From contig CM026556.1 in assembly GCA_015143295.1 (NCBI GenBank), positions 17,298,547 to 17,362,546 on the forward strand: a stretch of DNA of 64,000 bases, given 5' to 3'. This stretch comes from Tetracentron sinense. Its lineage: Eukaryota > Streptophyta > Magnoliopsida > Trochodendrales > Trochodendraceae. The notes beneath the pieces are model-generated. The model searched no databases and was not told the DNA's origin. It saw only the letters and a list, made by a program, of their open reading frames with translations. The stretch's first letter is position 1, and each line of letters begins with the position of its first letter. Positions 28,881 through 64,000 of this stretch are shown piece by piece. The position numbers and the translations under genes are program-made.

Positions 28881-28973
28881 TCTTATCAATTCAGGCTGGC
28901 ATGGAGACCGCCAGCAATCGATGGAAAGGTGCTACATACGTTGTATACTCCCATTAGAGTGAGTCGGGATCCT

Positions 28974-31475: not shown

Positions 31476-31609
31476 TACGGCCTGCTCATATCACCATTCA
31501 ATAGAGAAATTTATATAACGTTGTTCTCTACACCCACACATGATAGATAAGAAAAGTAAAAAAATATCAGCCATCAAAATTGAACTAAAACACAGTATAA
31601 AATTGCAAG

Positions 31610-31721
31610 CTAGTAGTCAAACTTGAGCAATGTAAACAGCAAGTCAGCAACCAATGATTCAGGGAAAGGGCCGAATTTGTTTGGCTCAATAATGTGAGCA
31701 AGCGAGTCATTCTCAACATAC
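31610..31721 (-). CDS. Last exon of an unidentified gene
   Basis: Acceptor 'atag' then an open frame encoding YVENDSLAHIIEPNKFGPF, then PESLVADLLFTLLKFDY and a TAG. The residue mix and the in-frame junction with the exon at 32437-32576 (phase 2 to phase 1, giving IDR|YVEND) suggest a genuine coding end. I do not recognise the family. Confidence 0.55.
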
Positions 31722-32436: not shown

Positions 32437-32576
32437 CTGTCAATCAACATCACACATATGAAGCCAAAAAGGTGAAAAGAGTAATCTCTCTGTTTGTAAT
32501 GTCCAGCAAGAAACTCAACTCCAAAATCTCTATGAGCCAGTAGCAGATAAGCACTTGACAGTAGCAACCCTATTTT
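32437..32576 (-). CDS. Internal exon of the same unidentified gene
   Basis: Acceptor 'attcaag', 46 codons: KIGLLLSSAYLLLAHRDFGV, then EFLAGHYKQRDYSFHLF and GFICVMLIDR, donor 'cag|gtaagt'. Fully open with good splice sites and a hydrophobic start. A possible earlier exon ending MTFRG with donor 'gtaagc' lies near 34200 on the same strand, but its link is a guess. Confidence 0.55.
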
Positions 32577-39707: not shown

Positions 39708-42685
39708 TGTGAAGTCCCCCCGAACCCACGCTCAAGGGATAATGTTCCGAGACACATGCTCGTTCGTCACAACCACACATGCGGAAGACTTTACCAGCGA
39801 AAATGCGGGAATTTTCAACTTTCTTATGAGCTTACATAAGCAATAACAACTGATCATCACAATAACCCATCATAAGCAAATGCGTTATCTCACTGGTTAC
39901 AGAATTTGCGTCACAATTGCGTTATCGTCACTTTTTGCGTCACAATTGCGCCGATACACTTTCCAAACTCTATCAAGCGTAGCTCCTTGCCAATCGGCAA
40001 CCACTTCAAAATTTGAAGACATAAAATGAGGGAGGGTGAGCTATAGAGCCCAGTAAAATTTAGAGTCCATCTACACTATTTTCTACATAGTTATATTCAT
40101 CAATAATGATATAGTATTATACTACAATTCTCATATTATAATAATATGGTAAATAATAATATCGTAATTCGTGATCCGATGGTCACTCAGAGCTATTTCA
40201 CCCTATCTGAGGTTCTCAAACTCCAAATATTTTCCATTGTCAAATTCATCCGGTCATTGTTCACAACAATAAGTTATCATTTCAGATAACCGCTCACGCT
40301 CTATCCTTGAGTCCACAGACTCGATCGACTGGGCATTTGCCCGTGTACAACCGCTATCCTTGAGTCCGTAGACTCAATTATTAACCAACCGGGCCTACGT
40401 CCAATCAAGCCATACTTTGAGTCTTTAGACTTAATACACATCCGGGCCTTCACCCGCAGAATTAACACAAATCATCTGATCTCAACCACGATGGAAAACT
40501 CGTCCACATGACATTTCTATCAAAGACAACCAATTGTTCTCCCCTAACTTAATCAAAGAGGATCTATGAATAACACACCAGCCTACTCCCGACTCTCAGT
40601 CACGAAGGACTACACAATACCACAACTCCAAACCTAGCCAAAGAGGATGTATGGATATTAATCCACCTACTCCTGACTATCAGTCACAGAAGACTACACA
40701 ATATCACCACTCCAGACCTAGCTAAAAAGGATCTATGGATAACACTCCACCCACTCCCGATGATCAGTTACGTACCTCGCCAAAGAGAATCTATGGACAT
40801 TATTCCACCCACTCTCAACAATCAGTCACGTACCTCGCCAAAGAGGATCTATGGATATTATACCACCCACTCCCGACTATCAGTCACGGAGGACTACACA
40901 ATATCACCGCTCCTGACCTAGTCAAAGAGGATCTATGGATATTAATCCACCCACTCCCGATTACGAGTCACGGAGGACTATACGACATCACCACTTCTCA
41001 CCTAGTCAAAGAGGATCTATAGATATTAATCCACCCACTCCCGACTATCAGTCACGGAGGACTATACGACATCACCACTCCTGACCTAGTCAAAGAGGAT
41101 CTATGGATATTAATCCACCCACACTAGACTATCAGTCACGGAGGACTATACGACCTCACCAGTCCTGACCTAGTCAAAGAGGATCTATGGAAATTAATCC
41201 ACCCACTCCCGACTATCAATCACGGAGGAGTCCTCACCAGTCCTGACCTAGTCAAAGAGGATCTATGGAAATTAATCCACCCACTCCCGACTATCAATCA
41301 CGGAGGAGTAAATGATATCACCACTCCTGGACTTAGCCAAAGAGGAATTATGGATATTAATCCACCTACTCCCGACTATCAGTCACGGTGGACTATACGA
41401 CATCACCACTCCTGACCTAGTCAAAGAGAAACCATATATAACGTTTCACACAAGTTAGGTTTTATAAAACCGTAGGAAATCCCCAATTATTCAGGCCTTG
41501 CTTAAATAATTAAACCAGTTGGGCCTCACGGCCGTGGCCAAGTCCGAGGTATACTGTCTCGATGTGGAATATTACCCGGGCAATGGACTTTTCCATTGCC
41601 TTACCATATTCAAACATCACATCACACATGTTCCGATAGGGAATATATCTGGGCCAATGCGTCCGTCCATCTCCCTACAACATTCAAACGACATCCCATC
41701 ACGCAGGGTTTGTTCCAAGGTGGAACTTTACCAGGCCAAGTGTTCAAAGATCATCACATCATACAAGGTTGTTCTGATAGGGAACTTAACCAGGCCAATG
41801 GACCTACCATTGCCTTAAAACAAACATTATATAACATTCATCATGCAAGGATGACTTCATGACACATAGAGGAGCCGACACAACCCTCCTGCAAAATCTA
41901 CATTAACTGTTATCAATCGCCTAGGGTCCTGACAGAACCCCAGGTGATCCGTCTGTTTACGATTGATCGTCTTGATCGATCGCACCATCGATCGCATGTC
42001 TTCTGTATGCTTACGATCGATCGCCACATCACTGCGATCAACCCGAAATCGAGGGCTACGCCCCTCTGCTCCATTTCCACGCTTTCTCATCCCTTCCATA
42101 CACAATGCACTGGGTCTCTGACCCTTTCTATCCCCGTCATACTTTATCCACGCCATTCAACAAACAAAATAGCTTAAATAAAGGGAAAAGAGAAGAGAGG
42201 GAGAAATTTTACCTACTACACGACTTTCGAGACTCCGGATGTTGAAATTATCGTGGCTAATGCGCTCAGAACACCAGAAAACCTCTAGGTGAACTGCCTC
42301 TCTCTAACTTCCACTTTCTCTCTCTAGAATTCTCTCTTTACATGCCAATCGAGATGCCAGGAAGAAAAACAGACGTCGCCAGCACGTCGGAAAAGTTGAA
42401 AAACCCCATAGTAGCCTTCCTCTTCCTTTCTCACTTCTTTTCTCTCTTTCCTCTTTCTCTTTACTCTCTCTATAAACGAAATAGGCAGAGCTTCGCTCTC
42501 TTTGCAATCCGTGAGAATGAGGGGAGGGTTTACCCTCATATAGAGGAGGAAAGGGGTGAGGTGTCCCCATGATTTCATTGATGACATCACAAACTTTGAC
42601 TATTTGACCGGTTTTCCCACTTTTTTGCATATACGACCTCCGAAACCCTACTAAGCGATGTGCTGACGACGTCCATTTTTCAAAA
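39708..42685 (-). mobile_element. Long LTR block A (truncated)
   Basis: Starts with a worn terminus 'tgtgaagtccccccgaaccc'. It contains, in order, the three TGAGTC dyads (40311-40430), the 'aaagaggatctatgga' minisatellite (about 40505-41430), a set of 'gggaacatatctgggcc'-like repeats (41560-41815) and the GATCGATC cluster (41961-42040). A pyrimidine-rich leader follows (42290-42480). The TATA-end and terminal CGTCACA of block B are missing, so it is cut near 42685. Confidence 0.75.
40505..41430 (-). repeat. Minisatellite of LTR block A
   Basis: Degenerate 55-85-bp units built on 'gtcaaagaggatctatgga' and 'actcccgactatcagtcacg'. Not a CRISPR: units are contiguous and spacer-like parts are themselves repeated. 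Confidence 0.85.
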
Positions 42686-44729
42686 TCATAAAATATGAGA
42701 TTAGGAAGAATAAAATTTCAATGAAAAATCTAAGTACCCAATCAAAATGGTGGGACTTGCCGCGATTGAAATCGATAGCAAGGTGAAACATGGAATGAAT
42801 TGACCTTTTTAGAGTTGTTGATTCTGCTTTGGAGTTTCCATGTTGTTTTAATGGTATAATTAACTACTTTAGCGAAGAAATCTACTTTAGAAATCAGAAA
42901 AAAATCATATTATTAAAAAAAAAAACGATAAGTTATTCTTATCGTTATAAAGCTGATAATTTAATTTTTTTATAGTTTAGTGTTATTATAGTAAAAAATT
43001 ATTACTTTTAGGAATTAGATGCACGTAGACTCATAGGGTCGTGGAAGTCCCTCTCTTACTAGTTTGACAAACACCTAGGTTGTGGGCCCCACCACAAAGT
43101 ATTTGTGCTTTTGTTAAAAAGAGTGAGCGTCAATGACTAGCTCCCCTTAGTTTTATCGAGGTATATTATTTTAATTATTTATCTAGTGTTAGTATTTAAG
43201 ATTACTTAAGCTATAAAAAATCAGTTTAGCAATAATAAAATTTCAATGAAAAATTTGAGTAACCAATCAAAATGGTGAGACTTTAACGAATGTGGAGCTG
43301 AAAGCAAGGTGAGACATGGAATTAATTGTCAGTTTTAGAAGTTGTTTATTCTGCATCATAGTTTCCGGTAGTTATAATGGTGTAATTAACTACTTTAGCG
43401 GAAAAATCTACTTTAGAAATCAGAAAAAATCATACTATTAGCAAAACAAGATAAGAAATTAAACAAAATGATAAAATTTACCGTTAATGAAGCCGAGAGC
43501 AAAGGGCATTCATCGATGATAACACAGGCAAAAGCAGAAGTGCAGTCGAGAGCAATGTGAGGCCTAGGATAACTGACCCTTTTACAAAAGTCATCGTTCA
43601 CACCTCATTCCATATATCTCAATAGGTGTAGTTGTACATGAAAAAAAGATCAAAATATCAATTTCAACATCAAAATTTTTAAAGAAATAAGGAATATAAA
43701 ATATAATACCTAAAAGTGCAAGAACTAAGAAGAGGATTGTATTTGGATCGAGTCTTTAGAAGGGAATTTTCCACAAGCAAGATATCTAGTCACCATTGAT
43801 TAACTCGCTAAACTAAATACTTCCACTAGATAAATAATAAAAATAATATATCTCAATAAAAAATAAAACTAAACGGAGCAATATTTTTATAGAATAATAT
43901 TATTATAGAAAAAAGTATTACTTTTAGAAATTAGCTACATGTAGACTTGTAGGGTCGTGGACATCCAACTCTTACAAGTTCGACAAACACCTAAGTTGTA
44001 GGCCCCACCACAAAGTATTTGTCCTTGTGCTAAAAAGAGTGGGTGTTTATGGCTAGTACTCCCATTAGTTTTATTGAGGTATAATATTTTAATTATTTAT
44101 CTAGTTTTAGTATTTAGTGTACTGAATATTCTTATTATGTATGATTATTTAAGCCATAAAAAATCAGATTAGCAAAAATAAAAATTCAATGAAAAATTTG
44201 AGTACCCAATCAAAATGGTTAGACTTACCGCAAGTGAAGCTGAAAGCAAGGTAAAACATGGAATTAATTGTCTGTTTTAAAATTTTTTTATTCTGCATTG
44301 TAGTTTCATATAGTTTTAATGGTGTAATTATCTACTTTAGCAAAGTAATCTACTTTAGAAATCAGAAAAAAATCATATTATTAACAAAACAAGATAAGAA
44401 ATTAACAAAATGATCAAACCTACCGTTAATGAAGCCGAGAGCAAAGGCCATCGATCGACAGCAACATAGGCAAAAGCAGAAGAGCAGTCGAGAGGAATGT
44501 GATATCTAGGGTAAGTGACCCTTTTGCAGAAGTCGTCGTTCACACCCCATTCCATAGAGCTCACATGCTGTAATTGTACATGAAAAAAAGATCAAAATAT
44601 AAGTTTCTACATCAAAATTTTTAAAGAAATAAAGAATATAAAATTTAATACCTAAAAGTACAAGAACTAAGAAGAAGACTGTATTTGGATCGAGTCTTTA
44701 GAAACAAATTTCCCTAAACCAAGACATCT
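42686..44729 (-). repeat. 0.9-kb array units between LTR blocks A and B
   Basis: Two units with 'taagtgaccctttt' ends near 43575 and 44515. Both have the GC-rich core in inverted orientation (43020-43190 and 43930-44110). Confidence 0.85.
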
Positions 44730-45494
44730 TATGACGCCATGAACCCGTGCCTAAGGAATAATGTTCCGAGACGCGTGCCCGTTCGTCATAACCACGCATC
44801 CAGAAGACTTTACCCGCGAAAATGCGAGAATTTTTAACTTTTCTTATAAACTTACATAAGCAATAATAACTGGTAATCACAATAACCCATCATAAGCAAA
44901 TGCATTACCTCACTGGCTATAGTAGTCTTTCCTTTTTGCGCCACAATTACGCCAGTACAATTCCCAAAATCGATTAAGTGTAGCTCTTTACCAATCGACA
45001 ACCGCTTCAAAATCTGAAGACATAAAATCAGGGGTGAGCTATAGAGCCCAGCAAAATCCACAGTCCATCTAGACTATTTTCCACATAATAATACACATCT
45101 GAATGATATAATAATACGGATCAATTTCCATATTACAATAGTAAATAATATCGTAAATCGTGAACCGAGGTCACCCAGAGCTATTTCACTCTAACCGAGG
45201 TTCCCAACCTCATACTATTTCTCATCTATCAATTTCATCCAATATCAATTGTGTTCACAATACCAGGTTACCGTTCCAGATAACCGCTCACTCTCTATTC
45301 TTGAGTCCACAGACTCGATCGACCAGGCCTTCACCAGCATACAACCTCTATCCCTGAGTTTACAGACTCAGCTATCAATCGATCGGGCTAATGCCCATTC
45401 AAACCATACCTTGAGTCTGTAGAAACAATACAAGATCATACAACTATCTGACTCAACCACAGTGAGAACCTTGTCCTCACGAAATCTCTATCAG

Positions 45495-46235
45495 ATAATA
45501 CAACCATCGCCTCCCCTGACCTAGTCAAAGAGGATCTATGGATGTCATTCTACCCACTCCCGACTATCAGTCATAGAGGATTAAACCACACCACACTCCT
45601 GACCTAGTCAAAGAAGATTTATGGATATAAATCCACCCACTCCCGACTATTAGTCACAGACGACCACACAATGCCACCACTCCAGACCTAGTCAAAGAGG
45701 ATCTATGGATAACACTCCACCCACTCTCGACGATAAGTCACGCACCTAGTCAAAGAGGATCTAAGGATAGTATTCCACCCACTCTCAACTATCAGTCACG
45801 TACCTCATTAAAGAGGATCTATGGATATTACTATTACTCCACCCACTCCCGACTATCAGTCACGGAGGACTAACAACACACCACTCTTGACCTAGTCAAA
45901 GAGGATCCATGGATATAAATCCACCCACTCCCGACTATCAGTTACAGACGACCACACAAGGCCACCACTCCAGACCTAGTCAAAGAGGATCTATAGATAA
46001 CACTTCACCCACACTCGATGATCAGTCACGCACCTAGTCAAAGAGGATCTATAGATAGTATTCCACCCACTCCCATCTATCAGTCACGTACCTCGTTAAA
46101 GAGGATCTATGGATATTACTCCACCCACTCCCGACTATCAATCACGGAGGACTAACAACACACCACTCCAAACCTAGTCAAAGAGGATCTATGGATATAA
46201 ATCAACCCACTCCCGGCAATTAGTCACGGAGGACT
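45495..46235 (-). repeat. Minisatellite of LTR block B
   Basis: About ten units of the same 'gtcaaagaggatctatgga' family, alternating long (~82 bp) and short (~58 bp) forms. Confidence 0.85.
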
Positions 46236-46699
46236 AAAGGCTAACATCTGATACTGATTAGAGTTTCTAACCGTAGTAAATCTGAAATTATCCTAAGCCT
46301 CACTTGGATAACTGAACCAATTGGGTCTCGCGCCCGTGGACCAAGTCCAAAAGTATATCGTTCCGCTAGGGAACATGATCTGGCCGATGAACCCTTTCAT
46401 CGCCTCATAAATGTTTCATTAACGTCACATCACACAAAGATAGTTACGAGGTGGAACTTTCCCAGGCCGATGGACCCTACCATCGCCAGAACATCACATT
46501 ATGTCATGGTTGTTCCGATAGGGAACATATCCGGGCCGATGGATCCGTCCATTGCCCAACAAATAACCAATTACATCACATTATAATGGGTCGTTCCCAT
46601 AGGGGACATATTCGGGCCAATGGATCCATCCATTGCCCTAACAAGCATCCAAGCACATCAGATTTCGCGTATGGAAGCCCAAGTCAGGCTTCCGGGTAC

Positions 46700-46895
46700 C
46701 AGGACGATCGATCTCCATCGATCGCACCGACGATCGATCGTCACACCCTACAATCGATCGCCGAGGGTCTAGAAGTCTCCCAGGTCCTCTGACATGCTTA
46801 CGATCGATCGTCAGAACACCGGACAATCGATCGCCCACGGCTTTTGCATGCAGTGAGATCGATCGTTCAAACTGACGATTGATCGCCCAAGCTTA
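46700..46895. promoter_or_regulatory. GATCGATC cluster in LTR block B
   Basis: Eight or more 'cgatcgat' words within 200 bp, several as the self-complementary 'cgatcgatcg'. The same cluster recurs at 41961-42040, 58155-58300 and 63315-63505. Role unknown. Confidence 0.6.
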
Positions 46896-48148
46896 TTCAA
46901 GCATGAAATTCCGAGCTTTTCAGCCTGGAACTAAGGGCTACCTCCCTATCATTCCATTCTAATCCCATCCCCATCCATTCCATTCTCATTCACGGGTATT
47001 AAACCCCTTTTCTATTCACATCACACAATCCACAACATGCACGGGTCTCCGACCCTTTATCCATTCACACCATAAACTCATATCACATTCCATAAACAAA
47101 ATAAAGAAGAATAGGGGTAGTTAGGAGAAAATAAAAAAGATGGAAGGGGGTTTTACCCATTTTACGTATACAGCGGGTCTTGGGCCCTTTTTCATCCACG
47201 CAATAAAGCAAGAACATCATCCACAACAAGAAAAACATATTTAAAGGGAAAATAGGAAAGAGGGAAAAGCGATTTTACTTCAATACCCGAAGATCGTGGC
47301 GTCTGGGAGTGAAACGGACACCGCCACTGCGTCGGGAGCTACGATCAACCCCAAGGAGCGCCCTCATCTTTCTTCTCTCTAGACTCTCTCTAGAATGGGC
47401 AAGACAGAGCTTCGGCTCTCTTGCTCTTTGTTCGTGAGAAATGAGAGGGCCTTGCCCCCTTTATATAGCCAAGAGGATGGGGGGGTTAAGATCATGCATA
47501 AAGCACATGACCATAATGGTGTGGAAAGTTGACCGGGTCAACTGGTTGGACCGGTTGACTTATTTTCCGATTTTTCTCGTGTATACTACCACTGTAAACC
47601 TACTATACGAAATCCGATTTTGACGAAACTTCAGGTGACCGAACTTTAAACAGTCGGACACCCGCTATAGAAATTTAGGGGAAAGATTCTGAGTTTTGAC
47701 AGCAAAAACTAAATCAGGGAGAAAACTGCAAAAACACTACTTTTCTTATTTCGGACACAAAACATGCAGTCCTTTCCTCAATGAGATGATAAACGCCCGA
47801 AACGACATACAATCGTCCACAAGTTTTGCAGATTTCTATTGGGACAGGCTGAAAATACTGAGGACCTACTAAATGTCCGATCCCGCGTATTTCCTGGGTT
47901 TTTGAACACCGATTGCATTGCAGTAACGCGAATTGATGTATGATGGAACCAGCACGACGAATAATTGTCCCGATAGTCGACTGACACGCTGTGTGCGATT
48001 TTCGAAAAAAAATACTGAATTTTATCGGTACAAACCCAGTCCCACACAAAAACCCACTTCCCACAAATTTAATCAATTTTTCGACAATTCAGCCCGGTTA
48101 AGGATCAATAACCCCAATTTAATTATATTAAAATTATGGATCATCACA

Positions 48149-49677
48149 TATCTAGTCATCATTGATTAACTCGCTATAAGCTAAATACTACCATTAGATA
48201 AATAATGAAAATAATATACCTCAATAAAACTAAAGAGAGTAATATTTCTATAGTACAGTATTATTCTATAAAAAAATAACCCCAATTTTATTATATTAAA
48301 ATTATGGGCCGTCACACATTAAGTCACCATTGATTAACTCGCTAAGCTAAATACTAACACTAGAGAAATAATATATCTCAATAAAACTAAAAGGAATAAT
48401 ATTGCTATAGTATAGTATTATTATAAAAAAAAATATTACTTTTAAAAATTAGCTGCATGTAGACTCGCAGGGTCGTGGACGTCCCACTCTTACCAGTTCG
48501 AGAAACACCTAGGTTGTGGGCACCACCACAAAGTATTTGTGTTTGTGCTAAAAAAAGTGGGCGTCTATGGCTAGCACTCCCCTGAGTTTTATTGAGGTAT
48601 AATATTTAACTACTTTTCTAATGTTAGTATTTCGCGCACCGAATATTCTTATTATGAAAGATTATTTAAGCCATAAAAAATCAGATTAACAAAAATAAAA
48701 TTTCAATGAAAAATTTGAGTACCCAATCAAAATGGTGAGACTTACCGCAAGTGAAGCCGAAAGCAAGGTTTTCATGAAATTAATTATCCATTTTAGAAGT
48801 TGTTGATTGTGCATCGTAGTTTCAATATAGTTTTAATACAGTAATTAACTACATTAGCGAAGCAATCTAGTTTAAAAATCAGAAAAAATCATAGTATTAA
48901 CAAAACAAGATAAGAAAATAATTAAACGACTTGATAAAACTTACCGTTAATGAAAACGAGAGCAAAGGGCATTCATCGACAACAACATAGGAAAAAGCAG
49001 AAGGGCAACCAAGGGCAATATGAGGCCTAGGGTAAGTGGCCCTTTTGCAAAATTTGTCGTTCACGCCCCTTTCCATATAACTCACAAGGTGTAGACATGG
49101 AAAAAAGATTAGCAAGAATAAAATTTCAATGAAAAATTTGAGTACCCAATCAAAATGGTGAGACTTACCGCGAGTAAACCCGATAACAAGATGAAACAAA
49201 GAATTAATTGTCCTTTTTAGAAGTTGTTAATTCGGCATCGTAGTTTTCATATAATTTAATGATGTAATTAACTACTTTAACGAAGAAATCTACTTTAGAA
49301 ATTAGAAAAACAAATTCATATTATTAACAAAACAAGATAAGAAAAGAATTAAACAAAATGAACAAACTTACCGTTAAAAAAGGCGAGAGCAAAGGACATC
49401 GATCGGCAGCAACACAGGCAAAAGCAGAAGAACAGTCGAGAGCAATGCGATATCTAGGGTAAGTGACCCATTTGCAGAAGTCGTCGTTCACGCCCCATTC
49501 CATATAGCTCACAAGGTGTAGTTGTACATGAAAAAAATATCAAAATATAAGTTTCTACATCAAAATTTATAAAGAAATAAAGAATATAAAATTTAATACC
49601 TAAAAGTACAAGAACTAAGAAGAGGATTGTAATTGGATTGAATCTTTAGAAGGGAATTTCCTTGAATCAAAACATCT
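48149..49677 (-). repeat. 0.9-kb array units with an LTR tip
   Basis: Unit sequence is interrupted at 48281-48317 by just the last ~37 bp of an LTR ('attatgggccgtcacaca'). A unit near 49.1 kb carries a distinctive deletion joining 'caaggtgtagacatgg' to 'attagcaagaataaa'. The SYMERG-type frame is open twice (48897-49199, 49324-49512). Confidence 0.85.
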
Positions 49678-50747
49678 TGTGACGCCCTGAACCCGCACCT
49701 AAGGAATAATGTTCCGAGACATGTCACCGTTCGTCTTAACCACGCATACGGAAGACTTTACCTGCAACAATACGGGGAATTTTTAACTTTTCTTATTAGC
49801 TTACATAAGCAATAACAAATGGTCATTACAATAACCCATCATAAGCAAATGTAATAACTCACTTCTATAGTAGCATTTACTTTTTATGCCACAACTATGT
49901 CTGTACACTACCCAAAATTAATCAAGCGTAGCTCCTTGCCAATCAACAACCGCTTCAGAATCTGAAGACATAAACTGAGGAGTGAGCTATAGAGCCCAAC
50001 AAAATCCACAATCCATCTAGACTATTTTCCAGATAATAATACATATCAAAATGATAAAATAATACCGATCAATTTTAATATTACAATAGTAAATAATATC
50101 GTAAATCGTGGCCCAAAATCACTCAGAGCAATTTCACTCTAACCGAGGTTCCCAACCTCAAACTATTTCCCATCCATCAATTTCATCCAATATCAACTGT
50201 GTTCACAATTCTAGGTTACCGTTCCTGAAAACCGCTCATTCTCTATTCTTGAGTCTAATGACTCAATCGACCAAGCATTCACCTGCATACAACCTTTATC
50301 CCTGAGTTCACAGACTCAGCTATCAATCGATTGAGTTCATGCCCATTCAAACCATACCTTGAGCCTTTAGACTCAATACAAGATCATAAAACTATCTAAC
50401 TCAACCACAGTGAGAACCTTATCCTCACGACATCTCTATCAGATAACACAACCATCGCTTCCCCTGACCTAGTCAAAGAGGATCTAGGGATATCATTTCA
50501 CCAACTCTTGACTATCAGTCATGGAGGACTAACAACACACCACTCCTGACCTAGTCAAAGAGGATCTATGAATATAAATTCACCCACTTCCGACTATCAG
50601 TCACGGAGGACCACACAATGCCACCACTCCAAACCTAATAAAAGAGGATCTATGGATAACACTCCACCCACTCCCGACGATGAGTCACGTACATAGTCAA
50701 AGAGGATCTATGGCTAGTATTCCACCCACTCCTGACTATCAGTCACG
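49678..50747 (-). mobile_element. Long LTR block C (truncated)
   Basis: Starts with a clean 'tgtgacgccctgaaccc' after the target 'catct' (49673-49677). It continues through the dyads and about four minisatellite units, then stops inside 'agtcacgta', where array sequence 'gtaagtggccc' takes over. The shared 'gta' suggests a microhomology join. Confidence 0.8.
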
Positions 50748-53100
50748 TAAGTGGCCCTTTTGCAGATGTCCTCGTTCACGACCCGGTCAATATAGCTCAC
50801 GAGGTAGTTGTACAAGACAAACATATCAAAATATAATTTCCTATATAAAATTTTTTGAAGAAATAAAGAATATAAAATATAATACCTAAAAGTATAACAA
50901 CTAAGAAGAGAATTGTATTTGGATCGAGTCTTTAGAAGAAATTTCCCTAAAGCAAGACATCTAGTCATCATTGATTAACTCCCTAAGCTAAATATTAAAA
51001 CTAGATAAAAAATAAAAATTAATATATCTCAATAAAACAAAAGGGAGCAATATTTTTTTAGTATAGTATTATTACATAAAAAATATTACCTCTAGGATTT
51101 TAGCTAGACTCGTAGGGTCGTGGACGTCCTACTCTTACCAGTTCGACAAACATCTAGGTTGTAGGCACCACCACCAAGTATTTGTGCTTGGGCTAAAAAG
51201 AGTGCGTCTATGGCGATCGCTCCCCTTAGTTTTATTAAGGTATAGTATTTTATTTATTTATTTATCTAGTGTTAGTATTTAGCGCACTGAATATTCTTAT
51301 TATGTAAGATTATTTAAGCCATAAAAAATCAGATTAACAATAAATAAAATTACAATGAAAATTTTGAGTACCCAATCAAAATGGTGAGACGTAACGCAAG
51401 TGAAGCTGAAACCAAGGTAAAAGATGGAATTAATTGTTCGTTTTAGAAGTTAGTTGGAGTTTCCATATAGTTTTAATGGTGTAATTAACTACTTTACTGA
51501 AGAAATATACTTTAGAAATAAACAAAAAAAAATTATTATTTAAAAAAAAAACAAGATAAGAAAATAATTAAACCAAATGATAAAACAAACCAATAATGAA
51601 GTCGAGAGCAAAGGGCATTCATCGACAGCAACACAGGCAAAAGCAAAAGGGCACCCGAGAGCAAGCTAAGGCCTAAGGTAGTTGTGGCCCTTTTGTAGAA
51701 GTCGTCGTTCACACCTCGTTCCATATAGCTCACAAGGTGAGGTTGTACATGAAAAAAAAATCAAAATATCAATTTCTGCAGCAAAAAAATTTCAAGAAAT
51801 AAATAATATCTAAAAGCACAAGAACTAAGAAGAGGATTGTATTTGGCTTGAGTCACTAGAAGGGAATTTACCATAAGTAAGACATCTAGTCACCATTAAT
51901 TAACTCCCTAAGCTAAATATTAACACTAGATAAATAATAAAAATAATATAACACAATAAAAAAAATATACCTCATAGAAGCCTCGTCTTTTTAGCACTAG
52001 TACAAATACTTTGCGGAGGGGCACACAACCTAGGTATTTGTCGAACTAGTAAGAGTGGGATGTCCACGGCCCTGTGAGTCTACTACATGCATCTAAATCC
52101 TAAAAGTGATATTTTTTCTATAAGTATTCTAAACTACTAAAATATTAGATTATCAACTTTATAACAATACCATTAACTAAGATAAAGTAGCACCGAATAT
52201 TCTTATTATGTAAGATTATTTAAGCCAAAAAAATTCAGATTAGCGACAATAAAATTTCAAAGAAAAATTTGAATGCCCAATCAAAACGGTGAGACGTAAT
52301 GCAAGTGAAGCCGAAACAAAGGTGAAACATAGAATTAATTGTTCGTTTTATAAGTTGTTAATTCTCCATCACAGTTTCCATATAGTTTTAACATTGTAAT
52401 TAACTACTTTACAGAAGAAATCCACTTTAGAAATTTTTTAAAAAATCATATTATTAAAAAAAAAACAAGATAAGAAAAGAATTAGACAAAATGATAAAAC
52501 ATACCGTTAGTGAAGCCGAGAGCAAAGGGCATTCATCGACAGCAACACAGGCAAAAGCAGTCTCGCAAGCTGTGGCCTAGGGTAAGTGACCCTTTTGCAG
52601 AAGTCGTCGTTCACACAGCTTTCCATATAGCTCACAAGGTGTAGTTATACATGAAAAACAATTCAAAATATCAGTTTCTGCATCAAAATTTTTTGAATAA
52701 ATAAATAATATAAAAATATAATACCTAAAAGTACAAGAACTAAGAAGAGGATTGTATTTGGATCGAGTCCTTAGAAGGGAATTTCCCTCAACCAAGACAT
52801 CTAGAGATCATTAATTAACTCGCTAAGCTAAATACTAACACTAGATAAATAATTAAAATAATATATCTCAATAAAACTATGGGGAGTGTTAGCCATAAAC
52901 GCCTTCACTTTTTAGCACAAGCACAATTACTATGCGGTGGGGCCCACAACCTAGGTGTTTGTCGAATTGGTAAGAGTGGGACGTTCACGGCCCTGTGAGT
53001 CTACACGCATCTAAATCCTAAAAGTGATATTTTTTCTATAATAATACTTAATTATTAAAATATTAGATCATCAACTCTATAACCATACCAATAACTTAGA

Positions 53101-53158
53101 ACCCTCGAGGATTAGTCCTGACCTAAAGGGTTGGGGACACCCTGAGTTCCAAAAAATA
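53101..53158 (+). mobile_element. SINE copy 3, 5'-truncated
   Basis: Only the last ~58 bp of the SINE remain, from 'ccctcgaggattagtcctg' to the A-rich tail. Downstream flank is the same as in copy 2. Confidence 0.85.
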
Positions 53159-55691
53159 ACATTATTTAAGTCACAAAAAATCATATTAGCACGAATAAAA
53201 TTTCAATGAAAATTTTGAGTACCCAATCACAATGATGAGACTTATTATGAGCCAATAGCAAGGTGAAACATGTAATTAATTGCCCTTTTTAGAAGTTGTT
53301 CATTCTGCATCATAATATTTATATAGTTTTAATGGTGTAATTAACTACTTTAGCGAAAAAATCTACTTTAGAAATCAGAAAAAAAATCATGTTATTAACA
53401 AAACAAGATAAGAAAACAATTAAACAAAATGATAAAACTTACCGTTAATGAAGGCGAGAGCAAAGGGAATTCATCAACAGCAACACAGGCAAAAGCAGAA
53501 GGACAGTCGAGAGCAAGGTGAGGCCTAGGGTAAGTGGCCCTTTTGCAGATGTCCTCGTTCACACCCCATTCAATATAGCTCACAAGGTGTAGTTGTACAT
53601 GAAAAAAAGATCAAAATATCATTTTCTACATCAAATTTTTTGAAGAAATGAAGAATATAAAATATAATACCTAAAAGTATAACAACTAAGAAGAGGATTG
53701 TATTTGGATCGAGTCTTTAGAAGAAATTTCCCTAAAGCAAGATATCTAGTCATCATTGATCAACTCGCTAAGCTAAATACTAAAACTGGATAAAAAAATA
53801 TAAATTAATATATCTCAATAAAACTAAAGGGAGCGTATTGAATAATTGTGCTTGTGCTAAAAAGAGTGCGTCTTTGGCTATCATTCCCCTTAGTTTTATT
53901 GAGGTATATTATTTTATTATTTATCTAGTGTTAGTATTTAGCGCATTGAATATTCTTATTATGTAAGATTATTTAAGCCATAAAAAATCAGATTAGCAAA
54001 AATAAAATTACAATGAAAATTTTGAGTACCCAATCAAAATGGTGAGACGTAACGCAAGTGAAGCCGAAACCAAGGTGAAACATGGAATTAATTGTTCATT
54101 TTAGAAGTTAGTTGGAGTTTCCATATAGTTTTAATGGTGTAATTAACTACTTTACCGAAGAAATCTACTTTAGAAATGAACAAAAAAAATATATATTATT
54201 TAAAAAAAAAAAGAGATAAAAAAAGAATTAAACAAAATGATAAAACATACCGATAATAAAGCCAAGAGCAAAGGGCATTCATTCACAGCAACACAAGGAA
54301 AAGCAAAAGGGCAGCCAAGAGCAAGCTGAGGCCTAAGGTAGTTGTGGCCCTTTTGCAGAAGTCTTCGTTCACACCCCGTTCCATATAGCTCACAAGGTGA
54401 GGTTGTACATGAAAAAAATATATATATATATCAGTTTCTGCACCAAAAAAATTTCAAGAAACAAATAATATAAAAAAATATCTAAAAGCACAAGAATTAT
54501 GAAGAGGATTGTATTTGGCTCGAGTCACTAGAAGGGAATTTACCACAAGTAAGACACCCATTCACCATTAATTAACTCCCTAAGCTAAATATTAACACTA
54601 GATAAATAATCAAAATAATATAACTCAATAAAAATAATATACCTCATAGACGCCTCCTCTTTTTAGCACTAGCACAAATACTTTGCGGTGGGGCACACAA
54701 CCTAGGTATTTGTCAAACTAGTAAGAGTGCGATGTCCACGGCCCTGTGAGTCTACTACATGCATCTAAATCCTAAATGTAATATTTTTTCTATAATTATA
54801 CTAAACTACTAAAATATTAGATTATCAACTTTATAACGATACCATTAACTTAGATAAAGTAGCACTGAATATTCTTATTATGTAAGATTATTTAAGCCAA
54901 AAAAAATCAAATTAGCAACAATAAAATTTTAATGAAAAATTTGAGTACCCAATCAAAACGGTGAGACGTAACGCAAGGGAAGCCAAAACCAAGATGAAAC
55001 ATAGAATCAATTGTTCATTGTAGAAGTTGTTAATTCTCTATCGTAGTTAATTAGACAAAATGATAAAACATACCTTTAGTGAAGCCGAGAGCAAAGGGCA
55101 TTCATCGACAACAACACAGGCAAAAGCAGAAGGGTAGCCGAGAGCAAGCTGAGGCCTAGGGTAAGTGACCCTTTTGCAGAAGTCGTCGTTCACACCCCAT
55201 TCCATATAGCTCACAAGGAGTAGTTGTACATGAAAAAAAATTCAAAATATCAGTTTCTGCATCAAAATTTTTTGAAGAAATAAATAATATAAAAATATAA
55301 TACCTAAAAGTACAAGAACTAAGAAGAGGATTGTATTTGGATCGAGTCCCCAGAAGGGAATTTCCCTCAACCAAGACATCTAGAGATCATTGATTAACTC
55401 GTTAAGCTAAATACTAACACTAGATAAATAATAAAAATAATATACCTCCATAAAACTAAGAGGAGTGTTAGCCATAGACGCATTCTCTTTTTACCACAAG
55501 CACAAATACTTTGCGGTGGGACCCACAACCTAGGTGTTTGTCGAATTGATGAGAATGGGACGTTCACGGTCCTCTGAGTCTACACGCATCTAAATCCTAA
55601 AAGTGATATTTTTTCTATAATAATACTAAACTATTAAAATATTAGATTATCAACTTTATAACGATACCATTAACTTAGATAAAGTAACACT

Positions 55692-55870
55692 GATTCATGG
55701 GCCTTTCGCCAAGTGGGAGGCCTTGGGTTCCATTTCTCACTCCCCCTTTGGGGCCAGCCCCGCACGGGTTTATCCAGACTTACCAGGTGTGGCGGGTTAT
55801 GGGCTCATATTGCACCCTCGGGGATTAGTCCTGACCTAAAGGGTTGGGGACACCCTAAGTTCCAAAAAAT
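55692..55870 (+). mobile_element. SINE copy 2, full length
   Basis: Head 'gggcctttcgccaagtggga' resembles a tRNA A box, and 'ggttccatttctc' a B box. The tail is 'gagttcc'-like plus A-rich. It replaces about 20 bp of the array unit after 'aaagtaacactg'. Confidence 0.82.
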
Positions 55871-56235
55871 AACGTTATTTAAGTCATAAAAAATCATATT
55901 AGCACGAATAAAATTTCAATGAAAATTTTGAGTACTTAATCACAATGATGAGACTTACTGTGAGCCGATTGCAAGGTGAAACATGTAATTAATTGTCCGT
56001 TTTAGAAGTTGTTCATTCTGCATCGTAATTTTCATATAGTTTTAATGGTGTAATTAACTACTTTAGCGAAAAAATCTACTTTAGAAATCAGAAAAAAATC
56101 ATGTTATTAACAAAACAAGATAAGAAAACCATTAAACAAAATGATAAAATTTACCGTTAATGAAGGGGAGAGCAAAGGGAATTCATCGACAGCAACACAG
56201 GCAAAAGCAGAAGGGCAGTCGAGAGCAAGGTGAGG

Positions 56236-56297
56236 CCTAGGATGAAAGAAAAATCTTGCTTTTGGGATATCCATACGCCATGCCACGACATCAACTT
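56236..56297. other. Spacer at the centre of the large inverted duplication
   Basis: 62 bp with no unit homology ('gggatatccatacgccatgc' inside). To its left units run one way, to its right the other. Confidence 0.8.
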
Positions 56298-57748
56298 GGT
56301 TTCTGATTTCTAAAGTAGATTGCTTCGCTAATGTAGTTAATTACTCCATTAAAACTATATTAAAACTACGATGCTCAATCAACAACTTCTAAAACGGATA
56401 ATTAATTCAATGAAAACCTTGCTTTTGGCATCACTTGCGGTAAGTCTCACCATTTTGATTGGGTACTCAAATTTTTCTTTGAAATTTTATTCTTGCTAAT
56501 CTGATTTTTTATGGCTTAAATAATCTTTCATAATAAGAATATTCGGTATGCTAAATACTAACATTAGATAAGTAATTAAATATTATACCTCAGTAAAACG
56601 AAGGGGAGTGCTAGCCATAGACGCCCACTCTTTTTAGCACAAACACAAATACTGTGGTGGGGCCCACAACCTAGGTGTTTGTTGAATTGGTAAGAGTGGG
56701 ACGTCCTCGACCCTGCGAGTCTACATGCAACTAATTTTTAAAAGTAATATTTCTTTTATAATAATACTATACTATAGAAATATTGTTCTCTTTATTTTTA
56801 TTGAGGTATATTATTTTTATTATTTCTTTAGTGGTAGTAATTAGCTTAGCGAGTTAATCAATGGTGAAGGAAATTCCCTTCTAACGACTCAGATGCAAAT
56901 AGAATCTTCTTCTTAGTTCTTGTACTTTTAAGTATTATATTTTATATTCTTTATTTCTTCAAAAAATTTTATGTGGAAATCGATATTTTGATATTTTTTC
57001 ATGTACAACTACACCTTGTGAGCTATATGGAATGGAGCATGAACGACGACTTCTGCAAAAGGGCCACTTACCTTACCCTGTGCCTCACATTGCTCTCTGC
57101 TGCCCTTCTGCTTTTGCCTGTGTTGCTGTCAATCAATGCCCTTTGCTCTCGGCTTCATTAACGGTAAGTTCTATCAAAACGTTTATTTGTTTTCTTATCT
57201 TGTTTATTTAATCATATGATTTTTTTATTATTTCTAAAGTAGATTTCTTCGGTAAAGTTGTTAATTACACCATTAAAACTATTTAAAAACTACGATGCAT
57301 AATTAACAAATTCTAAAACGGACAATTAATTCCTTGTTTGACCTTACTTTCGGCTTCACTTGCGTTAAGTCTCACCATTTTGATTGAGTACTTAAACTTT
57401 TTATTGAAAATATATTCTTGCTAATCTTATTTTTTATAGCTTAAATAATCTTACATAATAAGAATATTCAGTGCGCTAAATACTAACACTAGATAAATAA
57501 TTAAAATAATATACCTAAATAAAACTAAGGGGAGTGCTTGCAATAGACGCCCACTCTTTTTAGCACAAACACAAATACTTTGCGGTGAGGCCCTCAACCT
57601 AGGTGTTTGTCGAACTTGTAAGAGTGAAATGTCCACGACCCTGCGAGTCTACATGCTACTAATCCTTTAGTTTTATTTAGATATATAGTTTCATTATTTA
57701 TCTAATGGAAGTATTTAGCTTATCGAGTTAATCAATGGTGACTAGATG
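56298..57748 (+). repeat. 0.9-kb array units, inverted orientation
   Basis: About one and a half units, reverse complement of those on the left. Includes a frame with MNDDFCKRATY and LLSAALLLLPVLLSINALCS (56973-57161). The GC-rich core (56570-56780 and 57480-57660) is inverted relative to its flanks. Confidence 0.87.
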
Positions 57749-58779
57749 TGTGACGACCCATAATTTTAATATAATCAAATTGGGGTTATTGATCCTTAAC
57801 CAGGTTGAATTGTACAAAAATTTATTAAATTTGTGATTTTTGTGTGGGACTAGGTTTGTACTGATAAAATTGAGTATTTTTCTTCAAAAATCACACATAG
57901 CATGTCGGTCGACTATCGTGACAATTATTTTTCGTGTTGGTGTCATACATAGATTCGTGTTGCCGCAGTGCAATCGGTGTTCAAAAACCCAGGAAATACG
58001 CGGGATCGGACATTTAGTAGGTCTTCAGTATTTTCAGTCTGTCCCAATGGAAATACGTGAATAAGAATGGAATTGATGGGGATGAGATTAGAATGGAGCG
58101 AGAGGGAGGTAGCCCTCAGTTCCGGGCTGAAAAGCTTGGAATTTTATGTTCGAATAAGCTTGGGCAATCAATCGTCGGTTTGGACGATCGATCTCACTAC
58201 ATGCAAAAGCCATGGGCGATCAATTGTCTGGTGTTTTAACGATTGATCGTAAGCATGTCAGAAGACCTGGGGGATTTCTAGACCCTTGGCAATCGATCAT
58301 AGGGTGTGATGATGCTTGTACCCGGAAGCCTAATTTGGGATTCCATACGTGAAATGTGATGTGTTTGGATGCTTTTTATGGCAATGGATGGATCCATTGG
58401 CCAAAATATGTCTCCTATGGGAACGACTTGTTATGATATGATGTAATTTGTTATTTGTTGGGCATTGAACGGATGCATCGGCCCGGATATTTTCCCTATC
58501 GGAACAACTATGACATGATGTGATGTTATGGCGATGGTAGGGTCCATCAGCCTGGGAAAGTTCCACTTCGGAATAGTCTTTGTATGATGTGACGTTAATG
58601 AAACGTTTATGAGGCGATGAAAGGGTTCATCGGCCAGATCATGTTCCCTAGCGGAACGATATACTTCTGGACTTGGTCTATGGGCGCAAGGCCCAATTGG
58701 TTTAGTTATCCGAGCGAGGCTTAGGATAATTGAAGATTTACTACAGTTAGAAACTCTAATCAGTATCAGATGTTAGTCG

Positions 58780-59945
58780 TTAGTCCTCCGTGACTGATAG
58801 TCGGGAGTGGGTGGATTTATATCCATAGATCCTCTTTGACTAGGTCAGGAGTGGTGTGTTGTTAGTCCTCCGTGATTGATAGACGGGAGTGAGTGAATTT
58901 ATATCCATAGATCCTCTTTGACTAGGTTAGGAGTGGTGTGTTGTTAGTCCACAGTGACTGATAGTCGGGAGTAGGTTGATTTATATCCATAGATCCTCTT
59001 TTACTAGGTCTGGAGTTGTGTGTTGTTAGTCCTCCGTGACTGATAGTCGGGAGTGGGTGGAGTAATATCCATAGATCCTCTTTGACGAGGCATCTAACTG
59101 ATGGTTGGGAGAGGGTGGAATTCTATCCATAGATTCTCTTTGACTAGTTACGTGACTGATGGTCGGGAGTGGTGAAGTGTTATCCATATATCCTCTTTGA
59201 CTAGGTCTGGAGTGGTCGCATTGTGTGGTCCTCCGTGACTGATAGTCGGCAGTGGATGGACTTATATCTATAGATCCTCTTTGACTAGGTTAGGAGTGGT
59301 GTGTTGTTAGTCCTCCATGACTGATAGTCGGGAGTGGTTGGAGTAATATCCATAGATCAACTTTGACGAGGTACGTGACTGATAGTCGGGAATGGGTGGA
59401 ATACTATCCATAGATCCTCTTTGACTAGGTACGTGACCGATCGTCGGTAGTGGGTGGAGTGTTATCCATATATCCTCTTTGACTAGGTCTGGAGTGGTGT
59501 CTGTCATTGTGTGGTCTTCCGTGACTGATAGTCGGGAGTGAGTGAATTGATATCCATAGATCCTCTTTGACTAGGTGAAGAGTGGTTGGTTGTTAGTCCT
59601 CCGTGACTAATAGTTGGGAGTGGGTGGGGTAATATCCATAGATCCTCTTTGCCGAGGTACGTGACTGATAATCGGGATTGGTGGAAAACTATCTATAGAT
59701 CCCCTTTGACTAAGTACGTGACTGATCGTCGAAAGTGGGTGGAGTGTTATCCCTAGATTCTCTTTGGCTAGGTCTGGAGTGGTGGCATTGTGTGGTCATC
59801 TGTGACTGATAGTCGGGAGTGGGTGGATTTAGATCCATAGATCCTCTTTGACTAGGTCAAGAGTGGTGGTGTGGTTAAATCCTTTGTGACTGATAGTCGG
59901 GAGTAGGTGAAATGATAACCATAGATCCTCTTTAACTAGGTCAGG
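58780..59945 (+). repeat. Minisatellite of LTR block D with higher-order pattern
   Basis: Sixteen units marked by 'gatcctctttgactagg'. Successive spacings are 82, 82, 82, 58, 57, 84, 82, 58, 58, 88, 82, 57, 58, 82, 86 bp. After the first unit this is a repeated long-long-short-short block of about 280 bp. Confidence 0.9.
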
Positions 59946-60028
59946 GGAGGCGATGGTGTATTATCTGATAGAGATGTCGTGAGGACAAAGTTCTCAGAGT
60001 GAGTTAGATTGTTGTATGATCTTGTATT

Positions 60029-60155
60029 GAGTCTAAAGACTCAAGGTGTGGTTTCAATGGGCATGAGCCTGATCGATTGATAGCTGAGTCTGTGAACTCA
60101 GGGATAGAGGTTGTATGCGGGTGAAGGCCTGGTCGATCGAGTCTGTGGACTCAAG
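60029..60155 (+). promoter_or_regulatory. Three spaced TGAGTC/GACTCA dyads
   Basis: 'ttgagtctaaagactcaa', 'ctgagtctgtgaactcag' and 'cgagtctgtggactcaag', about 54 bp apart. They resemble bZIP/GCN4-like half sites arranged as inverted pairs. The same trio occurs in blocks A, B and C. Function not known. Confidence 0.55.
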
Positions 60156-60725
60156 AATAGAGAGTGAGCGGTTATCTGGAACAGTAACCTGGAGTTGTGA
60201 ACACTGTTGATATTGGATGAAATTGATGGATGGGACATAGTATCAGGTTGGGAACCTCGGTTAGAGTGAAATTGATCAGGGTGGCCTCGGAACACGATTT
60301 ACGAAATTATTTACTATTGTAATATAGAAATTGATCAGTATTATTATATCATTTTGATATGTATTATTATGTGGAAAATAGTCTAGATGGGCTACAGAAT
60401 TTGCTGGGCTCTATAGCTCACCCCTCATTTTATGTTTTAAAATTCTGAAGCGGTGCTCAATTGGCAAGGGAGCTACGCTTGATAAATTTTGGGAAGTGTA
60501 CCGCGTAATTGTGGCGCAAAAAGTAAAGACTACTATACCCAGTGAGACAATGCATTTGCTGATGATGGGTTATTGTGATGACCGGTTGTTAGTGCTTATA
60601 TAAGCTCATAAGAAAAGTTAAAAATTCACGTATTTTCATGGGAAAAGTCTTCCGCATGCGTGGTTATGACGAACGGGCACGCGTCTCGGAACATTATTCC
60701 TTAGGCGCGGGTTCGGGGAGTCACA

Positions 60726-62099
60726 AGATGTCTTGGTTCAGGGAAATTCTCTTCTAAAGACTCGATCCAAATACAATCCTCTTCTTAGTTCTTGTACTTT
60801 TAGGTATTAAATTATATATTCTTTATTTTCTTTAAAAATTTGATGTATAAACTTTTATTTTGATATTTTTTTCATGTACAACTACACCTTGTGAGCTATA
60901 TTGAATGGGGCGTGAACGACGACTTCTGCAAAAGGGTCACTTACCCTAGATATCACATTGCTCTCGGCTGTTCTTTTGCTTTTGCCTGTGTTGCTGTCGA
61001 TCGATGCGCTTTGCTCTCGGCTACGTTAACGGTAAGTTTGATCTTTTTGTTTAATTCCTTTCTTATCTTGTTTTGTTAATAATATGAATTTGTTTTTCTC
61101 ATTTTTAAAGTAGATTTCTTCGCTAAAGTAGTGAATTACATCATTAAACTGTATGAAAGCTACGATGCAGAATCAATAACTTCTAAAAAGGACAATTAAT
61201 TCCATGTTTCATCTTGCTATCGGCTTTACATGCAGTAAGTCTCATCATTTTGATTGGGTACTCAAATTTTTCATTGAAATTTTGTTCTTGCCAATCTTTT
61301 TTTGTTTTTTTATGTCTACACCTTGTGAGTTATATGGAAAGGGGCGTGACCGATGACTTCTGCAAAAGGGGCACTTACCCTAGGCCTCACATTGCCATTG
61401 GTTGCCCTTCTGCTTTTTCTAGTGTTGATGTCGATGAATGCCATTTGCTCTTGTCTTCATTAACGGTAAGTTTTATCAAGTAGTTTAATTCTTTTCTTAT
61501 CTTGTTTTATTAATACTATGATTTTTTCTGATTTCTAAACTAGATTGCTTCGCTAATGTAGTTAATTACTCTATTTAAACTACGATGCATAATCAACAAC
61601 TTCTAAAACGGATAATTAATTCCATGAAAACCTTTCTTTCGGCTTCAGTTGCGGTAAGTCTCACCATTTTGATTGGTTACTCAAAATTTTCATTGAAACT
61701 TTATTCTTGCTAAATTCATTTTTTATGGCTTAAATAATCTTTCATAATAAGAATATTTAGTGCGCGAAATACTAACATTAGATAAGTAATTAAATATTAT
61801 ACCTCAATAAAACTAAGGGGAGTGCTAGCCATAGATGCCCACTCTTTTTAGCACAAACACAAATACTTTGTGGTGGGGCCTACAACCTAGGTGTTTGTCA
61901 AACTGGTAAGAGTGGGACGTCCACGAGACCACGACCCTGCGAGTCTACATGCAGCTAATTTTTAAAAGTAATATTTTTTTTTATAATAATACTATACTAT
62001 AGCAATATTATTCCTTTTAGTTTTATTGAGATATATTATTTTTATTATTTCTCTAGTGTTAGTATTTAGCTTAGCGAGTTAATCAATGGTGACTTAATG
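60726..62099 (+). repeat. 0.9-kb array units, inverted orientation, with shared deletion
   Basis: Reverse complement of 48.3-49.68 kb, including the same rare deletion join ('atgtctacaccttgtgagtt' near 61312) and the same variant 'cctagatatcacattgctc'. Two SYMERG/SYIEWG-type frames are open (60891-61079, 61214-61483). Confidence 0.88.
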
Positions 62100-64000
62100 T
62101 GTGACGGCCCATAATTTTAATATAATAAAATTGGGGTTATTGATCCTTAACCGGGCTGAATTGTATAAAAATTGATTAAATTTGTGGGAAGTGGGTTTTT
62201 TTGTGGGACTGGGTTTGTACCGATAAAATTCAGTATTTTTTTTCGAAAATCGCACACAGTGTGTCGGTCGACTATCGGGACAATTATTCATCGTGCTGGT
62301 TCCATAATACATCGATTCGCATTGCCGCAGTGCAATCGGTGTTCAAAAACCAGGATATACGCGGGATCGGACATTTAGTAGGTCCTCAGTATTTTCAGCC
62401 TGTCCCAATAGAAATTTGCGGAACTTGTACCACTGCGGGTCAGTAGACCCTGTGTACGACTGACTGTCGTTTCGGCAGTTTATCATCTCATATGAGGAAA
62501 TGACAACCTATTTTGTGTCCGCAATCAGTAAATTAGTGTTTTTGTAGTTTTCTCCCGGATTTATTTTTGCTGTCAAAACTCAGAATCTTTCCCCTAAATG
62601 TCTACCACGGGTGTCGGACTGTCTAAAGTTCGGTCACCTGAAGTTTCGTCAAAATCGGATGTAGTATAGTAGGTTTACGAAGGTAGTATACACGAAGAGG
62701 GCGCTTTGCGCATTATCTCAACCCTCCATCCTCTTGCCTATATAAAGGGGGCAAGGCCCTGTCATTTCTCACAAACAGAGAGCAAGAGAGCCGAAGCTCT
62801 GTCTTGCCCATTCTAGAGAGAAAGTCTAGAGAGAGTGAGAGAGAAGAAAGAAGAGGGCGCTCCTTGGGGTTGATCGTCGCTCCCGACGCCTCGATCTTAA
62901 CGTATAGAGGTAAAATCTCTTTTCCCTCTTTCCTATTTTTCTTTTAAATACGTTTTTCTTCTTGTGGATGATGTTCTTGCTTTATAGCGTGGATGAAAAA
63001 GGGCCCAAGACCCGTTGTATACGTAAAATAGGTAAAACCCCCTTCCATCTTTTCTATTTTCTCCTAGCTACCCTTATTCTTCTTTATTTTGTTATTGGAA
63101 TGTGATATGAGTTTATGTTGTGAATGGAAAGAAGGTCGGAGACTCGTGCATGTTATGGATTGTGTTTGTGGTCGTGTGATGTGATTGGAAAAGGGGTTTA
63201 ATACCCATGAATGAGAATGCAATGGATGGGGTTGGGATTAGAATTGAGCGAGAGAGAGGTAGCCCTCAGTTTCATGCTGAAAAGCTCGGAATTTCATGCC
63301 CGAATAAGCTTGGGCGATCAATCGTCAGTTTGGACGATCGATCTCACTGCATGCAAAAGCCGTGGGCGATCGATTGTCCGGTGTTTTGACGATAGATCAT
63401 AAGCATATCAGAGGACCTGGGGAATTTCTGGACCCTCGGCGATCGATCGTAGGGTGTTACGATTGATCGTCGGCGGCGATCGATGGAGATCGATCGTCCT
63501 TGTACCCGGAAGCCTGATTTGGGCTTCCATACGCGAAATGTGATGTGTTTGGATGCTTGTTAGGGCCATGGATGGATCCATTGGCCCGAATATGTTCCCT
63601 ATGGGAATGACCTATTATTATGTAATGTAATTTGTTGGGCAATGGACGGATCCATCGGCCCGGATATGTTCCTTATCGGAACAACCATGACATGATGTGA
63701 TGTTATGGCGATGGTAGGGTCCATCTGCCTAGGAAAGTTCCACCTCGAAACAGTCTTTGTGTGATGTGACGTTAATGAAACATTTATGAGGCGATGAAAG
63801 GGTTCATCGGCCAAATCATGTTCCATAGATCCTCTTTGACTAGGTCAGGAGTGGTGTGTTGTTAGTCCTCTGTGACTGATAGTCAGGAGTGGGTTGAGTA
63901 ATATCCATAGATCCTCTTTGACAAGGTACGTGATTGATAGTCGAGAGTGGTTGGAAGTCTATCAGTAGATCCTCTTTGATTAAATATGTCTTTCTTAGTT
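62100..64000 (+). mobile_element. Long LTR block E, runs off the window
   Basis: Begins TGTGACGGCCCATAATTTT. TATA box 'tatataaa' at 62749-62756, then a leader with GAGAGAG runs and a possible donor 'gag|gtaaaa' (62907). The GATC cluster (63315-63505) and the 'ggcccggatatgttcc' repeats (63540-63820) follow, then minisatellite units to the edge. A segment of about 180 bp present in block D between these two repeat sets is missing. Confidence 0.78.
62749..62756 (+). promoter_or_regulatory. Putative LTR TATA box (block E)
   Basis: 'ctatataaaggggg', followed 20-40 bp later by a leader conserved in block B on the other strand. This fixes the transcriptional direction of the LTR family. Confidence 0.6.

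Follow-up and report, generated by a model that had tools for sequence, protein, structure and literature searches.

Inverted segmental duplications, inversions with breakpoints in repeats, satellites that switch orientation and arrays containing long terminal repeats (LTRs) are all known, and the locus analysed here belongs to this kind. It lies in a 64,000-nucleotide stretch of Tetracentron sinense DNA (hereafter the window; contig C6, CM026556.1, positions 17298547-17362546) and consists of a tandem array, built of ~900-bp units and interspersed with LTR-like blocks, which changes orientation at one point and is flanked by sequence that recurs, inverted, on its other side.

The closest described systems resemble this locus in part. 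Human fold-back inverted duplications share with it large inverted flanking copies with a spacer, and a short junction of novel sequence (PMC3907307); here, however, an array with two orientations forms the spacer, its halves deriving from different module classes, and a plain inversion explains the locus at least as well as a fold-back. In the satellite macro-dyad symmetries of Tribolium madens, a tandem array also switches orientation and forms kilobase inverted subarrays, with two predominating inversion types and conserved inversion sites (PMC13081366). In contrast, the junction in T. sinense was crossed by one of 65 listed genome matches, itself, and an array of ~900-bp units with LTR-like inserts stands here beside a duplicated flank. 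Plant tandem arrays mixed with LTR sequence are represented by the LTR-retrotransposon-derived satellites of Lathyrus and by the Cassandra arrays (PMC7004042; PMC7215508), whereas the LTR-like blocks described below share a single site within an unrelated unit and were probably amplified along with that unit. Finally, the Arabidopsis VIM4-VIM2 and PAI loci are plant inverted repeats from which small interfering RNAs (siRNAs) are made; at those loci a deletion moved the copies into proximity, and transcription reading through them was demonstrated (PMC13213937). At the present locus, 8.9 kb separates the best-matched array arms and 35 kb the flank arms. Our literature searches, covering titles and abstract openings, retrieved none describing this locus, which does not establish its absence from print.

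We propose that two cassettes, each composed of a flank (F) and an array (A), stand here tail to tail as F+A- followed by a reversed A+F-, and that this arrangement probably arose by one inversion in a row of cassettes, with a homology-free join. The locus is thus a well-resolved case of ordinary genome reshuffling, whose breakpoint inside a long repeat array is placed to the exact base, since undisrupted relatives of its two sides are preserved at other places in this genome.

Junction between the two array blocks

Coordinates refer to the window unless a contig is named, and values below 1 or above 64000 fall outside it. The genome searched comprises 1.16 Gb in 1479 contigs; all comparison stretches come from this genome, and the locus was extended by 20 kb leftward and 65 kb rightward. 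Match counts for the junction query are lower bounds, since very common words are skipped in the search; the match list for the composite around unit CD (see below) and the array orientations given for C6 and C19 are likewise lower bounds. The two array blocks and the sequence between them are:

34816-56241, minus strand: left array block, mapped ~900-bp units with LTR-like blocks E, A and B
56242-56299, no strand: 58-bp filler at the orientation-switch breakpoint junction, delimited by collinearity edges on its two sides
56300-64000, plus strand: right array block, with units U1 and U2, LTR-like block C, unit CD and LTR-like block D, continuing past the window

A reading of this DNA from its letters alone (the sequence-only reading) had placed an orientation switch here, and in fact the minus orientation of the array ends at 56241 and its plus orientation begins at 56300, the exception being a ~240-bp piece that is flipped in some units; the unmatched spacer, given there as 62 bp, measures 58 bp. 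On the left, window 39773-56241 corresponds to the reverse of C1464:35563-19084 (97.4% over 16549 columns; Kimura two-parameter distance, K2P, 0.0205), in a match that ends exactly at 56241 and whose opposite end is the end of C1464. On the right, 56300-65204 is collinear with C22:10183600-10192595 (93.3% over 9040 columns; K2P 0.051), and this match begins exactly at 56300. The 161-bp query over the junction, from which the 65 listed matches were obtained, gave the same edges, its left 52 bp being 100% identical to C1464 up to 56241 and its right 51 bp 100% identical to C22 from 56300. Beyond the breakpoint, the C1464 unit continues intact into phase 681, and the C22 unit continues intact through phases 539/538, where the window has the filler; that is, both sides continue intact elsewhere in an uninverted context, as at an inversion breakpoint.

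The junction looks like a non-homologous breakpoint, the scar of a rearrangement, and not like the centre of a mirrored array copy. The presence of filler and the lack of homology at its edges suggest end joining as the repair route. Copying of the filler from a known source was considered and rejected, as only weak matches of 12-20 bp (E 0.046-0.73) were found in the fetched stretches.

The region is repeated, and on the short contig C1464 the left block is followed by other sequence, both of which would fit a misjoin of two array contigs at 56.24/56.30 kb. Nevertheless, there is no N in 144 kb, the arms differ by ~3-10% and hence do not represent a mirrored read, and no genome match was obtained for the filler, whereas shared sequence is where one would expect a false join to fall. 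We regard an assembly error at this point as unlikely.

Relationship between the array arms

The units that bear on the relationship between the two arms, and the interior of the left block, are:

48317-49677, minus strand: unit AB, between LTR-like blocks A and B, sister of the C1464 copy (support 100/100, 94.8%)
60726-62099, plus strand: unit CD, between LTR-like blocks C and D, with the C22 copy as its closest match in identity (94.8%)
50747-53529, minus strand: first copy of a three-unit direct higher-order repeat, recognised from tree pairs and tiles
53530-56241, minus strand: second copy of this repeat, cut at the junction, recognised likewise

The sequence-only reading explained the array as a mirror-image duplication about 56.26 kb. 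The outer parts of the arms do match in inverted orientation, 46366-50749 against 59658-63828 (BLAST 87-89%, K2P 0.097), as a collinear match of 4.1-4.4 kb, and the two longest stretches without a mismatch between AB and CD measure 105 and 99 bp. When the window only is considered, pieces of AB and CD are also sisters in the tree (u48676/u61298, 100/99; u49108/u60728, 98/94), and a 'TTAATG' flank is common to AB and CD only (two of the eight listed full-length copies of the CD composite). However, the axis of the outer matching segments lies at 55.1-55.2 kb, ~1.1 kb off the proposed centre, and the arms aligned end to end share 70.8% identity over 5629 columns, with 2541 further gap columns. 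The interior is not mirrored: all 19 of the 300-bp tiles from 50701-56400 have a direct best match within the window, the left interior units pair directly in the tree (51324 with 53983, 52230 with 55049 and 53176 with 55889, at 92.5-95.5%), and the 3' part of LTR-like C (59701-60900) is closest to A rather than to B, its mirror partner, in 4/4 tiles. Genome-wide, both units are closer to kin elsewhere than to each other (AB-CD 92.1%, against the 94.8% to the copies on C1464 and C22), and both module classes occur in direct orientation on C1464 (7147-8516 and 25634-27007, ~18 kb apart). A mirror-image origin of the array is, in our view, highly improbable.

Three rare markers had been noted as shared by the arms; all are present, yet one alone is confined to the arms. 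The genome contains at least eight full-length copies of the CD composite, CD and AB included, and the internal unit deletion is spanned by 8/8 of those listed (with the exact deletion string printed for seven), as the 'gatatctaggg' variant is found in 8/8; the cattaagtcacc flank is restricted to AB and CD (2/8). The shared markers mostly derive from an older direct-tandem module family. In agreement with separate classes, AB groups with the C1464 copy and the split between the AB and CD classes is supported at 100/100; branching inside the CD class is mostly open in the tree, CD being assigned to its C22 relative by identity only. Over 3.1 kb, 92 informative sites support AB-C1464/CD-C22, six support AB-CD and four are crossed. 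On C6, two CD-class modules lie in direct orientation at 17.456-17.516 Mb, ~18.4 kb apart. The mirror-like look of such arrays can mislead, as the markers within the window implied a local duplication and the genome-wide copies imply a rearrangement. We also observed a near-identical patch common to the arms, at 61913-62141 and 48275-48435, which departs from the class pattern.

Inverted repeat in the flanks

Comparison beyond the window revealed a far larger inverted duplication than the one sought in the array. An inverted duplication does therefore exist at this locus, as had been claimed, although in the flanks outside the array and not as an array mirror about 56.26 kb. Its features are:

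2238-33152, plus strand: left flank copy, the true inverted-repeat arm, with a partner at 68288-116781 outside the window, in eight inverted blocks
1-1874, extending from -5158, plus strand: distal 171/344-bp tandem array (Tandem Repeats Finder), with inverted counterparts at 118944-121760 and 123752-129000

On the left arm the inverted blocks take up 28749 of 30915 bp, and on the right arm, which holds unmatched stretches (e.g., 97478-112207), 28881 of 48494 bp; the array constitutes the 35-kb spacer between the arms. In most blocks the arms share ~97% identity, and six of the eight together show 635 differences over 20667 sites (3.07%); the two left out of this value are 11567-12521 (94.66%) and 26262-33152 (91.25%). 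Such long inverted copies of high identity constitute an inverted segmental duplication, of a type able to mediate further inversions. At the far end of both arms we identified a 171-bp tandem array (344-bp higher-order period), roughly 70-85% alike between the sides; its right counterpart reaches the limit of the fetched sequence (129000), and left of about -5160 there is no match to the right side within the extended stretch.

The flanks have further copies. Long copies of the piece 18700-20700 are present on C6 at 17317 (plus), 17379 (minus) and 17613 kb (plus) and on C22 at 10083, 10220 and 10254 kb (all minus), with partial copies on C19, C201 and C14. For the piece 6000-8000, we found a near-full copy on C22 (96%) and partial copies on C21, C10, C13 and other contigs.

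Origin of the tail-to-tail arrangement

In this reading a cassette has undergone segmental duplication, and the locus represents one of its several copies; the cassette begins with a flank (F) of ~31 kb, behind which lies an array (A) whose ~900-bp units are interspersed with LTR-like blocks. F+A- occurs left of the junction and at C6 17.60-17.63 Mb, A+F- right of the junction; on C22, at ~10.08-10.25 Mb, plus arrays and minus flanks both occur, their adjacency not having been read base by base. When the ~240-bp piece with its variable orientation is disregarded, the arrays listed for C6 are minus as far as 17.3548 Mb, change to plus for 17.3548-17.3606 Mb, are also plus at 17.4772-17.4971 Mb and return to minus at 17.6285-17.6312 Mb. 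Two broken arrays would have been joined without homology at 56.24/56.30 kb, with the 58-bp filler, the flipped stretch extending from 17.3548 Mb to a predicted point between 17.4971 and 17.602 Mb on C6. Before the inversion the modules would have formed a direct pair, like the pair that survives on C1464, and afterwards an inverted pair. A single inversion accounts for the arrangement most economically, because flipping this stretch back restores a single orientation throughout the copies seen. The flank arms differ by 3.07% in six of their eight blocks and the array arms by a K2P of 0.097, so the array arms did not separate in the flank duplication.

The same junction, filler and inverted flanks would be explained if A+F- had been reverse-copied beside F+A-, by template switching or by insertion of a duplicated segment, without any inversion. 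Complex inverted-duplication junctions are known in human cases (PMC3907307), and the near-equal distances among the C6 flank copies (see below) are those of a copying burst. Copying alone leaves unexplained the plus orientation of the further array at 17.47-17.50 Mb, and the right-block array is nearer to C22 than to the neighbouring array. We thus infer an inversion rather than inverted copying, which is its main rival and which we hold to be somewhat unlikely.

Several observations weigh against the inversion. Its reciprocal second breakpoint is a prediction, C6 17.516-17.618 Mb lying outside the compared sequence. The right block differs from C22 by a K2P of 0.051, above the flank divergence of 0.031, so that array and flank histories differ. 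The C22 copy of 6000-8000 scores 3266 bits, against 3282 bits for the inverted neighbour (96% each), and the three C6 flank copies are near-equidistant in one 3-kb stretch (96.68, 96.87 and 97.09%); being nearly equal, the flank copies do not order the events. In addition, a 369-bp stretch without class-supporting sites, a result reached in 13 of 20000 trials of random site placement, holds the cattaagtcacc marker, and CD there resembles the AB class. This hints at possible sequence exchange (gene conversion) between the arms, a hint only because the stretch is partly misaligned, AB carrying a local duplication.

We give slight credence to the possibility that the cassette, with long copies on two or more chromosome-scale contigs and arrays on additional ones, is an amplification unit of its own, whose arrays tend to stand tail to tail, as a plant equivalent of satellite macro-dyad symmetry, and whose inverted arms occasionally exchange sequence.

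C1464 (35.6 kb, probably unplaced) ends inside the array, with both module classes direct, and may represent either the other haplotype or another cassette. The listed arrays of C19 are plus at 25.94-26.45 Mb and minus at 26.60-26.63 and 26.90-26.92 Mb; since array orientation varies along this contig, switches may be common in this repeat.

LTR-like blocks

Five LTR-like blocks are embedded in the array:

39713-42680, minus strand: LTR-like E, divergent and at a different insertion point, recognised from its flanks, with a 3' part that shares 75.5-78.6% identity with A, B and C
44730-48316, minus strand: LTR-like A, recognised from its termini, with flanks CATTA/CATCT and CTATATAAAG on the minus strand at 47459
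49678-50746, minus strand: LTR-like B, truncated inside its 84-bp repeats, with a corresponding truncated block at C1464 24562-25631
57749-60725, plus strand: LTR-like C, with TG...CA ends and a 5-bp target-site duplication (AGATG/AGATG), without the CTATATAAAG stretch
62100-64000, plus strand: LTR-like D, cut by the window end, with CTATATAAAG at 62738

Block C has the hallmarks of a solo LTR, with TGTGACG...GTCACA ends and AGATG on either side. As for the other blocks, the flank and 3' end are altered in A, whereas B is truncated and D is cut by the window end. B, like C, is devoid of the region that holds CTATATAAAG. The unit position is identical for A, B, C and D at every preserved end, E being separate. 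Since A-D share their unit position wherever an end is preserved, they probably stem from one insertion, multiplied together with the unit; independent insertions in each arm were considered and set aside, one multiplied insertion being simpler given this common position. The informative sites for the three groupings numbered 5, 8 and 8 for A, B, C and E, and 8, 6 and 2 for A, D, C and E, so that these counts do not clearly favour any one grouping.

Repeat unit and coding content

The repeat unit is ~900 bp long, as seen from successive landmarks at 35020 and 35919. The flipped ~240-bp piece occurs in nine of 20 units (6/17 left of the switch and 3/3 right of it). It corresponds to unit positions 25-262 (e.g., 43880-44117, 48397-48635 and 61764-62010), carries a short inverted duplication at its edge, and is a candidate micro-inversion or small foldback element. 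The left interior block starts at unit phase 681 (50747) and stops at phase 679 (56241), amounting to an integral number of units, as a ring of such units would after linearisation.

A unit-encoded protein was considered and rejected: no match above the Pfam cut-off was obtained for the three array open reading frames (ORFs) tested, with a single sub-cut-off match, to NMN_transporter (E 0.0072; 16.7 bits against 27.3). None of 12 candidates gave a hit at E<=0.001 in the protein search, and no known RNA family reached its gathering score in the window. In the left flank, 12119-12379 encodes a remnant of a Ty1-copia-type reverse transcriptase (RVT_2, E 8.4e-10). The flank ORFs at 18619-26873 on the minus strand resemble exons of a plant LCAT-type acyltransferase gene, an unproven assignment; Pfam gave no LCAT match for the three flank ORFs, and the 13 matches to PF02450 in the genome all fall outside the locus.

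Geometry of facing repeats

The plant inverted repeats known to yield siRNAs depended on close copies and on read-through transcription (PMC13213937). At this locus the best-matched array arms are separated by 8.9 kb and the flank arms by 35 kb, and the CTATATAAAG copies in A (minus) and D (plus) both point away from the junction. Ordinary units that are 84-85% alike face each other across it at ~0.2-0.8 kb (56300-56523 with 55875-56094, and 57082-57448 with 55875-56236), and because of this proximity a transcript crossing the junction could possibly form an imperfect hairpin.

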